From Muribaculaceae bacterium (lineage in GTDB: Bacteria; Bacteroidota; Bacteroidia; Bacteroidales; Muribaculaceae), in NCBI GenBank assembly GCA_017621055.1, contig JAGATX010000026.1, forward strand, positions 1 through 54,562: a DNA stretch of 54,562 bases. Direction: 5' to 3'. The position numbers and the translations under genes are program-made. The notes beneath the pieces were generated by a model, which saw only the letters and a program-made list of their open reading frames with translations, ran no database searches and was not told where the DNA came from. Shown here piece after piece: positions 6,329-23,056 of the stretch. Numbering within the stretch: the stretch's first letter is position 1; each line of letters opens with the position of its first letter.

Positions 6329-6357
6329 GAGCCTGTTTCCCTATATCTGTTGCAAGT
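6329..6357 (+). repeat. Orphan copy of the MITE/IS terminal inverted repeat
   Basis: GAGCCTGTTTCCCTATATCTG and the bases after it match about 25 of 29 positions of the terminal repeat of the element at 22714-23048 (GAGCCTGTTCCCCAATATAT...). The copy is preceded by TTAA. No second end is nearby. It fills most of the dnaX-proB gap, directly before the proB ATG. Confidence 0.5.
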
Positions 6358-20461: not shown

Positions 20462-22714
20462 ATGGAAAAAGCGGTTTATAATCTCACCCCCGAGCAGGAG
20501 GACAGAATGGTCGACGAGGCCTTTCAGGACCTCCTCGCCGGGTATCTGGCCAGCAACCACCGCAAAAAGGTGGAGATAATAGAACGCGCCTACCGGTTTG
20601 CACGTCAGGCGCATCAGGGCATACGTCGCCGTTCCGGCGAACCTTACATCATGCACCCCATCGCCGTGGCCAAGATTGCCAGCCAGGAAATAGGTCTGGG
20701 TTCAACGAGCATATGCGCCGCCCTGCTCCACGATGTGGTCGAGGATACAGATTACTCCGTCGATGACATACGCCAGCATTTCGGCGACAAGATAGCGCAG
20801 CTCGTCGAAGGCCTCACCAAGATTTCCGGAGGCATTTTCGGCGACAAGGCCTCGCTCCAGGCCGAGAATTTCCGCAAACTGCTGCTCACTATGAGCGAGG
20901 ATATCCGCGTGGTGCTCATAAAGATGGCCGACCGTCTCCACAACATGCGCACCCTCGGCTCGATGGCTCCCAACAAACGCTACAAGATAGCGGGCGAGAC
21001 CCTATACATATACGCGCCGCTGGCCCACCGCCTGGGCCTCTTCGCCATAAAGACCGAGCTGGAGGACCTCAGCTTCAAGCACGAGCATCCCGACATATAC
21101 GAGAACATATCGCGCAAAATCGCCGTGTCGGCACGTCACCGCGCGGAAGTTTTCACCGATTTTGCCGAGCCCATAAAGGCCAAGCTCGACGAGATGGGGA
21201 TAAAATACGAGGCCACGGCACGCCTCAAGTCTATCTATTCCATCCACAACAAGATGGAAAAGAAGCATCTGCCTTTCGAGGAGATCTACGACCTCTATGC
21301 CATGCGCATAATCTTTGAATGCGACGACCGCGACAAGGAAAAGAGCATATGCTGGAGCATCTACTCGGCAATAACCGACCTATACCGCGTGCATCCCGAA
21401 CGTACGCGCGACTGGATTGTCACCCCCAAGGTCAACGGCTATCAGGCTCTCCATCTCACCGTGATGGGTCCCGACGGAAACTGGGTGGAGGTGCAGATAC
21501 GCTCCCGGCGAATGGACGAAATCGCCGAAAAAGGGTTTGCCGCCCACTGGAAGTACAAAATCGGCGAAGGCGACGAGGAATCGGAACTCAATGCATGGCT
21601 CAAAACCATCAAAGACATCCTCGACAACCCCGAACCCAGTGCGATAGACTTTCTCAACACTCTCAAACTCAACCTTTTCGCCTCCGAGATAGTGGTTTTC
21701 ACGCCCGCCGGCGAACTCATCACCCTGCCCACGGGCGCCACGGTGCTCGACCTCGCTTTCGCCCTCCACACCGAAATCGGCATGCACTGCATAGCCGCCA
21801 AGGTGAACCACAAGCTGGTGCCCCTGCAGCACGAGCTCAGCAGCGGCGACCAGGTGGAGGTCCTCACATCAAAAACTCAGGTGCCGCTGCCAGAATGGGA
21901 GAATTTCATGGTCACCGCCAAGGGCCGCACGCGCCTGCGCAAGGCCCTGCGCGCCGCCCGCCAGCCTATGGTGTTGAAAGGCAACGAAATACTGTGCCGA
22001 TGGCTCGAAGACAGCAAAATTCCCGACAATAACCTTGTAATCACCAAGATACAAGGCATATACCACGTAGGCAACCGCGACGACCTATGCTACCAGTTAG
22101 GAGCCGGCGAGATAGCCCTCGGCGATTTTCTGGTCAACACGCTGCGCCGTGCCCTCGAAAGCGCAAAGCCCGGACGCGCCACATCGTTGCTGTCGCGGAT
22201 ATGGCCGTTGAGCCGGAAGAAAGACGCCGAACCCGAGGCAGAACCCGCGCCCGAGCCCATCAGCACCAAGCAGATATACTCTCTGCGCGTAGGCCCCGAC
22301 GGCGCGAACTTCAAACTGGCGCCATGCTGCTCGCCTATACCCGGCGATGACGTAATGGGCTTCATAGCCGATGACGGAAAGGTGGAAATCCACTCGCTGG
22401 ACTGCCCCGAGGCGCAGGTGCTCAAGGCCGCCTACGGCTCCCGGATTATCGCAACCGAATGGGAAAGCACCGACGAGCGCTTCCTCGCTCACATCCGCAT
22501 CGAGGGCATCGATCGCCGAGGCATCCTTCAGGAACTTACCCAAATGATTTCCACACATCTGGGCATTGACATCCGCAAGGTCGACATCGAGGCCACCGGC
22601 GCCGTATTCCACTGCGACCTGTGGGTGCGCGTGGCCGACTCCGATGTTGTTCACGATCTATGTACCCATGCCCGCAAAATCCACGGCGTCCAGTCTGCCG
22701 TTCGTGTTAATTAG
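20462..22714 (+). CDS. rel: Bifunctional (p)ppGpp synthetase/hydrolase
   Basis: This 750-residue RelA/SpoT-family protein makes and degrades the stringent-response alarmone. The HD hydrolase domain keeps its HDxxED motif (LLHDVVEDT, His90-Asp91...Glu94-Asp95). The synthetase domain has TPKVNGYQALH and EVQIRSRRMDEIAEKG. TGS (about 390-455) and C-terminal ACT (about 665-745) domains follow. Both activities are predicted intact. The ATG at 20462 matches the family N-terminus; an in-frame TTG-like extension to 20444 falls within the promoter. The present stop TAG (22712-22714) is completed by the first base of the inserted element. Without the insertion the protein would gain Leu-Val-Leu and end at a TGA overlapping the next gene's ATG. 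Confidence 0.95.
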   Translation: MEKAVYNLTPEQEDRMVDEAFQDLLAGYLASNHRKKVEIIERAYRFARQAHQGIRRRSGEPYIMHPIAVAKIASQEIGLGSTSICAALLHDVVEDTDYSVDDIRQHFGDKIAQLVEGLTKISGGIFGDKASLQAENFRKLLLTMSEDIRVVLIKMADRLHNMRTLGSMAPNKRYKIAGETLYIYAPLAHRLGLFAIKTELEDLSFKHEHPDIYENISRKIAVSARHRAEVFTDFAEPIKAKLDEMGIKYEATARLKSIYSIHNKMEKKHLPFEEIYDLYAMRIIFECDDRDKEKSICWSIYSAITDLYRVHPERTRDWIVTPKVNGYQALHLTVMGPDGNWVEVQIRSRRMDEIAEKGFAAHWKYKIGEGDEESELNAWLKTIKDILDNPEPSAIDFLNTLKLNLFASEIVVFTPAGELITLPTGATVLDLAFALHTEIGMHCIAAKVNHKLVPLQHELSSGDQVEVLTSKTQVPLPEWENFMVTAKGRTRLRKALRAARQPMVLKGNEILCRWLEDSKIPDNNLVITKIQGIYHVGNRDDLCYQLGAGEIALGDFLVNTLRRALESAKPGRATSLLSRIWPLSRKKDAEPEAEPAPEPISTKQIYSLRVGPDGANFKLAPCCSPIPGDDVMGFIADDGKVEIHSLDCPEAQVLKAAYGSRIIATEWESTDERFLAHIRIEGIDRRGILQELTQMISTHLGIDIRKVDIEATGAVFHCDLWVRVADSDVVHDLCTHARKIHGVQSAVRVN

Positions 22715-23048
22715 AGCCTGTTCCCCAATATATGTTGAATTCTCGGCCGCATATCGTAGAACTGATTTTGACATGTGAAGAAGGAGTGTACTTGCAGCAC
22801 ACGACTGATGAACATGACAAAAGACGTCTGCGAGATGCGCTCAGAAACTATTATTTTTCGACTCGATATACAACATAATTTAAAATATAGCCTTTATCCT
22901 CAATGAAGTTAGCATCGCCTCGGTCACTTTTTTGCGCTTTTGTACGCCGTCCTCGGTCGTTATGGTACACCATAACACCCTCAGCCGTCGAACAAAATCG
23001 CTCAAAGATCGACCGTCGAGAATTTAACATATATTGGGGAACAGGCTC
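22714..23048 (+). mobile_element. 335-bp MITE-like element (IS5/IS1031-like ends, TTA duplication)
   Basis: The ends GAGCCTGTTCCCCAATATAT and their inverted copy extend about 32 bp, with one mismatch in the first 32 (TATGTTGAATTCTCG at left, TATGTTAAATTCTCG at right). The element is flanked by direct TTA repeats at 22711-22713 and 23049-23051. The interior is AT-rich, has no transposase-sized ORF (longest noticed: 40 codons on minus, 22851-22973), and carries a 7-bp dyad GTTATGG/CCATAAC at 22959-22976. The TNA-type 3-bp duplication and the GAGCCTGTT-type end suggest mobilisation by an IS5-family (IS1031-group) transposase. That family call is inference. Strand is arbitrary. Confidence 0.82.
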
Positions 23049-23056
23049 TTAGTATT

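Follow-up and report, generated by a model that had tools for sequence, protein, structure and literature searches.

Paired GA/GA hairpins in a non-autonomous IS5-family element of Muribaculaceae appear to be maintained as structures

Introduction

What is the short AT-rich segment that separates a RelA/SpoT-type gene from a 7TMR-HD gene in a Muribaculaceae bacterium, and what might its interior do? The segment lies in contig JAGATX010000026.1 of assembly GCA_017621055.1, in a stretch of 54,562 nucleotides that was analysed as a whole and is referred to here as the window. An initial annotation, made from the sequence alone, described the segment as a recently inserted MITE derived from an IS5-family element. 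Here we examine its anatomy, its relatives and the unusual fold of its two arms.

Results

The element occupies positions 22714 to 23048 of the window (335 bp) and is flanked on both sides by TTA (22711 to 22713 and 23049 to 23051). Its terminal inverted repeats are 33 nt long (22714 to 22746 on the plus strand and 23016 to 23048 on the minus strand) and match at 31 of the 33 positions. About 4e-9 such pairs would be expected by chance in the window, given equal base frequencies and a spacing of up to 1 kb, and a repeat search found a single inverted pair between 22600 and 23200. Inverted similarity extends beyond the 33 nt and amounts to 83% over 57-58 nt. With a G+C content of 0.433 the element is poorer in G+C than the 2 kb on either side (0.578 and 0.588), and it contains no ORF of 60 aa or longer; two ORFs, of 70 and 82 aa, overlap its edges. 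The initial annotation was thus right about the near-identical ends bounded by TTA, the lack of a transposase-sized ORF and the AT-rich interior that differs from the flanks, and the identification of the element as a MITE is secure.

Each arm of the element is a long hairpin by itself. The left arm, of type A (basal GCAT...ATGC), spans positions 22738 to 22857 and is read outside-in on the plus strand; the right arm, of type B (basal GGTC...GACC), spans 22903 to 23024, is read outside-in on the minus strand and has GT in place of one GA of its inner loop. Their matches to R1, a covariance model of the hairpin, score 93.8 and 88.5 bits, respectively, and the AT-rich middle that lies between the two hairpins (22846 to 22914) overlaps the inner edges of both matches.

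The neighbouring genes encode a RelA/SpoT-type protein (PF13328, PF04607, PF02824, PF13291) and a 7TMR-HD protein (PF07698, PF01966). The TAG stop codon of the RelA/SpoT-type gene (22712 to 22714) overlaps the left target-site duplication and is made up of the TA of that duplication and the first G of the element. Because the base that follows the right-hand TTA is also G, this stop codon would presumably be TAG without the element too. Elsewhere in the window, at 6329 to 6349, there is a lone end of the same kind with three mismatches and TTAA before it; no second end or arm was found for it in the window, and it is probably a relic.

The bacterium's own genome (G000, a 2.03-Mb draft that is 93.5% complete) contains five two-ended copies, including that of the window, on contigs C34, C2, C30, C26 and C11, together with four unpaired ends. 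The copy in the window is 93.1, 90.4, 91.9 and 83.7% identical to the other four. Apart from the lone end in the window, unpaired ends were noted at C3:8550, C17:12154 and C33:27840, the one on C17 matching over 49 nt. The 3' end of the RelA/SpoT-type gene was matched in 45 of 49 genomes of the genus, and 30 loci were compared, our own included. In 25 of the 29 syntenic relatives the gap between the RelA/SpoT-type and HD genes is 97 bp or less, leaving the site without an element; the remaining four have an element of another subfamily (locus L338, genome G032) in one case and other inserts in three. Hairpin model matches at the syntenic loci are confined to our own (L334) and L338. A fixed intergenic element, found at this locus and nowhere else, is the reading that the initial annotation had named as its own refutation; it is ruled out by the copies elsewhere and by the empty sites in relatives.

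The element of L338 sits in the same stop codon and has the same A-to-B orientation as that of the window. The copy in the window is closer to the copies in its own genome (84-93%) than to the G032 element (72% over the aligned part, G032:C15:5520-5647), so two independent insertions at one spot would be the simpler reading.

A DNA search with the window element gave matches in 16 of 61 genomes (its own included), all from one genus. From the loci examined we collected 60 pairs of ends, of which 58 were kept after the removal of one false pairing (L031) and of L071, which has no such arms. The pairs were sought by consensus and, where there was a choice, the pair with matching flanks was preferred; a choice existed in two of the 60 and the nearest end was passed over in one of these. 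Identical 3-bp flanks were present in 44 of the 58 elements and all 44 were TNA, in agreement with the 3-bp duplications anticipated for an IS5-family derivative. The collected elements range from 245 to 1147 bp, and the two 33-nt ends of one element agree at 93.6% of positions on average, compared with 72.2% between elements.

The longest of them, L067 (1147 bp, with a TAA duplication), has both arms and a 250-aa open frame; L066, of about 1060 bp at a contig end, has both arms and a 239-aa frame. Both frames match NF033580 (transpos_IS5_3), one with 161.7 and the other with 171.2 bits against a cut-off of 110; that of L067 also matches PF01609 and PF13340, and that of L066 matches PF13340. 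Remnants of PF13340 are retained in L024, L033 and L069 (626-861 bp). These relatives, together with the dispersed copies that share its ends in the same genome, bear out the proposal that the window element is a non-autonomous IS5-family derivative. Its assignment to the IS1031 group (IS1031/ISL2-like) is putative and follows from the TNA duplication and the usual definition of that group.

PF13340 was matched at E<=0.001 in 11 of the 49 genomes of the genus, and no match to this transposase family (DUF4096) was found in the window's own draft genome. Among the 13 PF13340 loci in the 49 genomes, no transposase-bearing copy had exactly the window's end, GAGCCTGTTCCCCAATATATG; the ends recognised at eight of the 13 belong to other subfamilies, for example GACCCCGTTCTCC, GACCCGGTTCCCC and GAGCCGGTTCGAC. 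At blastn sensitivity the L067 element had no match in plasmids and the window element none in phages.

Of the 116 sides of the 58 elements (L071 and the false pairing being left out), 35 have a gene stop codon no more than 8 nt away, and in 25 of these it is exactly at the duplication; the open frames counted had 80 codons or more, or a minimum of 60 where they met the edge of a locus. For random TNA sites, taken upstream of these elements, the proportion is 7.2% (795/10990). Since TAA and TGA are themselves TNA, an insertion can leave the stop codon intact. Selection against other insertions explains the excess, and no special mechanism is needed.

In most of the elements nucleotides ~25 to 145, read inward from either end, fold into one hairpin of ~95 nt. 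From base to tip it consists of a 4-bp helix, a 5-bp helix, a bulged A, three pairs and a 9-bp helix, followed at the tip by GA, two pairs, GA, a stem of ~7 bp with a short loop, GA, two pairs and GA, an arrangement that amounts to two tandem GA/GA internal loops. To describe its variation we took 117 arms from 59 candidate elements, omitting the false pairing L031 and one N-containing arm. A loose motif was fitted by 112 of the 117, and thinning at 93% left 71; removal of eight rows that were deleted, interrupted, odd or not arms (L004L, L024L, L045R, L048L, L071L, L071R, L157R and L195L) and addition of the window's left arm gave a set of 64. Of the 64 arms, 61 have the inner GA/GA loop and 58 the outer one.

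In this set 95.4% of cells are paired, a figure that describes arms selected as intact, and both sides have changed in 29 of 31 pairs. There are 542 doubly changed cells compared with 173 in shuffled alignments, and none of 500 shuffles reached any of five measures, a count that is not a probability, given that related sequences can exceed every shuffle. When the partner is slid by one to three columns pairing falls to 30-48%, although this control flatters the fold because RNAalifold picked the structure from the same alignment.

The two strands of the arms do not seem to be equivalent. In the 64-arm set there are 84 G-T cells and 13 A-C cells, with 37:6 in the 35 A arms and 39:7 in the 29 B arms; these cells are not independent events, and the pairs counted had at least 70% Watson-Crick cells and at least two pair types, so they were not chosen by wobble. 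Selection seems to act on the strand that is read inward from each end, and to do so at both ends, because the same cells in the complementary strand would be A-C. This argues against a role in transposase mRNA only, in which the complement of one arm would be found. Folding energy gives no consistent strand preference in the window arms (RNA z of -4.0 and -2.7 when the arms are read inward, and of -2.7 and -4.3 for the complementary strands), and the fold forms with DNA parameters too (z of -2.3 and -5.4 for the window arms and -6.9 for an L066 arm). To judge from the pattern of substitution, selection maintains the structure of the hairpin, chiefly on one of the two strands.

A script that classed the arms found one A arm (basal CGCAT/ATGCG-like) combined with one B arm (basal GGTCA/TGGCC-like) in 50 of the 59 candidate elements; in the other nine (L024, L163, L194, L005, L071, L093, L114, L033 and L045) arms are deleted, N-containing or unclassified. 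In L066 and L067, and on the opposite strand in L044, it is the A arm that lies 5' of the transposase. One hairpin or its tip is missing in L004, L024, L045, L076, L079, L093 and L114 despite two matching TNA flanks, so that either the loss followed insertion or both hairpins are not strictly needed. By eye, the arms without hairpin or tip in L004, L005, L024, L045 and L195 are cut at or near the hairpin, as palindrome slippage would give.

Searches with Rfam 15 found no covariance-model match at E<=1 between 22600 and 23150 of the window, and in eight related loci a single match below its cut-off, to mir-351 (26 bits, where the cut-off is 70; E 0.073). The CTGATGA of the left arm had suggested a hammerhead-like core, for which Rfam gave no match, and a promoter at the base of the hairpin, looked for by eye, was not convincing.

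Model R1 has two matches in the window and nine in the window's own genome. In large genome searches, which used stricter filters, it has matches in 36 of the 49 genomes of the genus and none in the other 13, in 87 of 149 family genomes (20 of 30 genera) and in seven of 198 order genomes, two of which are from the same family. Among 80 IS5 transposase loci from named genomes, some of them cut by contig ends, 69 have no match and 11 have one (five labelled Muribaculaceae, three Porphyromonadaceae and one each from Bacteroidales, Barnesiella and Bacteroides). In another Bacteroidales family, single hairpin matches of 47 and 41 bits (L327 in G267 and L328 in G370) occur in MITE-like repeats whose ends are AAGG(T/C)ATGTTCTATAAATT and AAGTTAGGTTCTAAAAATT.

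Many weaker, unpaired matches occur in genomes G016 and G004, and very many matches in G077 (at least 104) and G159 (at least 100); among the matches listed for G159, 95 arms form 34 inward-facing pairs within 1.3 kb and leave 27 unpaired. We inspected 60 single-hairpin loci, 20 from G016 and G004 and 40 more from G077 (22) and G159 (18). They proved, by eye, to be MITEs of the same bacterial family with one central hairpin and with ends quite unlike those of the window element: (TAA)GTAAGCA, (TTA)GAGTGTGTTT, (TAA)GTAACCC, (TAA)GTAAGTGAG, GAAGTTGTTT, GAGATTGTC or GAAACTGTTT. An alignment of 53 model matches (A3) took in 49 of the 60 loci, including three extra matches in L244, L246 and L249 and one row (L277 169-289) with GAGCTTG ends like those of some double-armed elements. 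In A3, which leans towards pairing because it was fitted to the model, 91.2% of cells are paired, both sides have changed in 26 of 31 pairs and none of 500 shuffles is as high. Each GA/GA loop is intact in 47 of the 53 rows, and the ratio of G-T to A-C is 49:20, a weaker asymmetry than in the 64-arm set. The orientation of the GA strand showed no clear bias with respect to the flanking ORFs of the 60 loci (28/30 on the left, where 58 loci had an ORF, and 35/25 on the right), direction being taken from the open frame with most overlap and not from annotation. Along the G159 chromosome the strands of single hairpins look mixed by eye.

The 18 single-hairpin MITEs of G159 share one core (91-100% identical to L279) but not one kind of end. 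Nine have GAGATTGTC ends and cores that are 97.5% identical on average, seven have GAAACTGTTT-like ends and cores that are 92.5% identical, and between the groups the cores are 94.1% identical; the ends of L285 are mixed and those of L294 decayed. The same genome has six copies (five identical, one with a single difference) of an 868-bp IS5-type element with GAGATTGTCTAAA ends and 271-aa frames, and there is no hairpin inside it. The ends of the MITE core seem to have shifted towards those of this probably recently active transposon, a direction suggested by the greater uniformity of the cores in the GAGATTGTC group. At L277 (G159:C1:308640-311160) three mobile elements stand head to tail with TTA between neighbours: a one-hairpin MITE with GAGCTTG ends, an IS5 element of 868 bp, and a single-hairpin MITE whose ends are those of that IS.

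Discussion

From the anatomy, family, fold, strand asymmetry and spread described above we infer that the window element, a non-autonomous IS5 MITE, is probably moved in trans and that its arms are probably cis-acting single-strand hairpins used in its mobility or in the control of it. An IS5-type DDE transposase, supplied in trans, would recognise the terminal repeat (GAGCCTGTTCCCC...) and insert the element at a TNA site, in this case a TTA where the RelA/SpoT-type gene ends, with the stop codon kept. Each of the two subterminal arms, on the strand that is read from its end inward, forms a long hairpin with a pair of tandem GA/GA loops, and the hairpin would most likely act in cis as a single-strand structure, of DNA or RNA, in the mobility of the element or its control. 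It appears to serve the DNA element and not transposase expression, because its fold is kept by compensatory change both in a mixed set of transposase-bearing elements and MITEs and in a second set, of MITEs that have other ends. IS5 transposition does not in general require it, because the G159 IS5 element that has the ends of a hairpin MITE has no hairpin.

The initial annotation read the nearly perfect ends as a sign of recent movement. Both ends are indeed intact over their outer 20 nt, and so is the duplication, but intactness alone gives no insertion date, and other findings do not support recency: the nearest copy in the same genome is 93.1% identical and the other three 84-92%, PF13340 was not found in the 93.5%-complete draft, and the right arm reads GT/GA at the loop that is GA/GA in 61 of 64 arms. 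Current mobility of the element in its own genome, in the draft of which no PF13340 transposase was found, is unproven.

The alternatives that we weighed concern the role of the hairpin and overlap with the reading just given. Read-through RNA of the flanking genes could fold an arm at its 3' end, as a REP-like stabiliser, processing site or insulator, and so make insertion at a stop codon harmless. Both arms are selected outside-in, which is the direction of transcripts entering from either side, and the stop-codon excess (35 of 116 sides, compared with 7.2% at random TNA sites) fits such a role, as do the MITE stem-loops in transcripts and the effects of RNase III/E that open-licence papers describe in other bacteria (PMC10969869, PMC4596501). 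The same excess would however be produced by purifying selection on TNA insertions, and single-hairpin MITEs have no clear orientation bias to flanking ORFs; we think a role in host mRNA unlikely. Recognition of the hairpin by a second enzyme, REPIN-like (HUH) or otherwise acting on single-stranded DNA, is less likely still. The fold does form with DNA parameters, with z values as negative as -6.9, and REPINs are described as paired hairpins linked to RAYT transposases (PMC3116915), but the elements studied here have DDE-type terminal repeats and TNA duplications, and the strands of the G159 hairpins look mixed by eye along the chromosome.

We regard as very unlikely the view that the element is a plain deletion derivative, with arms that are leftover IS5 end sequence and hairpins that have no function of their own. 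Transposase-bearing relatives do have arms at their ends, and there are forms with partial deletions; against this stand the changes on both sides of 29 of 31 pairs, the strand-specific wobble, the same fold in MITEs with other ends, and the 69 of 80 IS5 loci from other genomes, some cut by contig ends, that have no model match. In IS10 and IS50 a 5' hairpin shields the start of the transposase gene from read-through transcription. As a similar control of expression would require, the transposase frames of L066 and L067 have the A arm upstream of them, but the B arm at the other end has the same strand asymmetry and MITEs without a transposase keep both arms, and of all the roles considered this seems to us the most improbable.

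The long relatives resemble the IS5 family in their frames (NF033580 transpos_IS5_3, PF13340/PF01609), in ends of the form GA(G/C)... and in 3-bp TNA duplications. They differ from TNA-flanked, GA...-ended relatives outside the group (L083, L088, L089, L107, L109, L120, L123 and L133), which are 855-916 bp long and extend 10-33 bp past the matched transposase stretch, whereas L066 and L067 are ~1060 and 1147 bp long and have a structured arm of ~120 bp at each end. The BrickBuilt, MITE239, MITE464 and MITE700 elements of P. gingivalis are, as described in an open-licence paper, likewise gene-less with ends that match IS5-family elements (PMC4596501). Their predicted stem loops arise from 23-nt direct repeats, unlike the fixed ~95-nt GA/GA hairpin with covariation found here. 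REPINs share with the window type paired inverted hairpins, many copies and a non-autonomous nature; they are described as linked to tyrosine transposases, whereas the hairpins described here sit within DDE-type inverted repeats and target duplications (PMC3116915). Correia, ERIC and QMITE-type MITEs are also short and AT-rich, with structured transcripts, but in QMITE2, as described, the whole element folds, while here one hairpin is common to MITEs with unlike ends (PMC10969869). In open-licence papers, taken without their supplements, we recognised no description of this hairpin or of one fold common to MITEs with unlike ends, which is not proof of absence.

A bolder reading, which we put forward tentatively and hold to be possible though not probable, is that what endures is the hairpin and not the ends, as a non-coding module defined by its fold. 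Such a module of one Bacteroidales family, rare in others, would ride several IS5-type transposases by changing its terminal repeats, and its GA/GA strand, as RNA or single-stranded DNA, would be bound by a partner needed for spread or tolerance.

Bacterial MITEs are usually defined by their ends and their interior is taken as debris. The type of interior found in the window shows strong covariation, for the most part on one strand, and does so in MITEs whose ends are unlike. A hairpin that acted as a cis factor would pose a testable question about IS5-type recognition in gut Bacteroidales and about the switching of transposases by gene-less parasites. The covariance model also allows many repeats in these genomes to be annotated. 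Should the fold prove to be a module that passes between transposases, DDE transposition would gain a new class of structured cis element.
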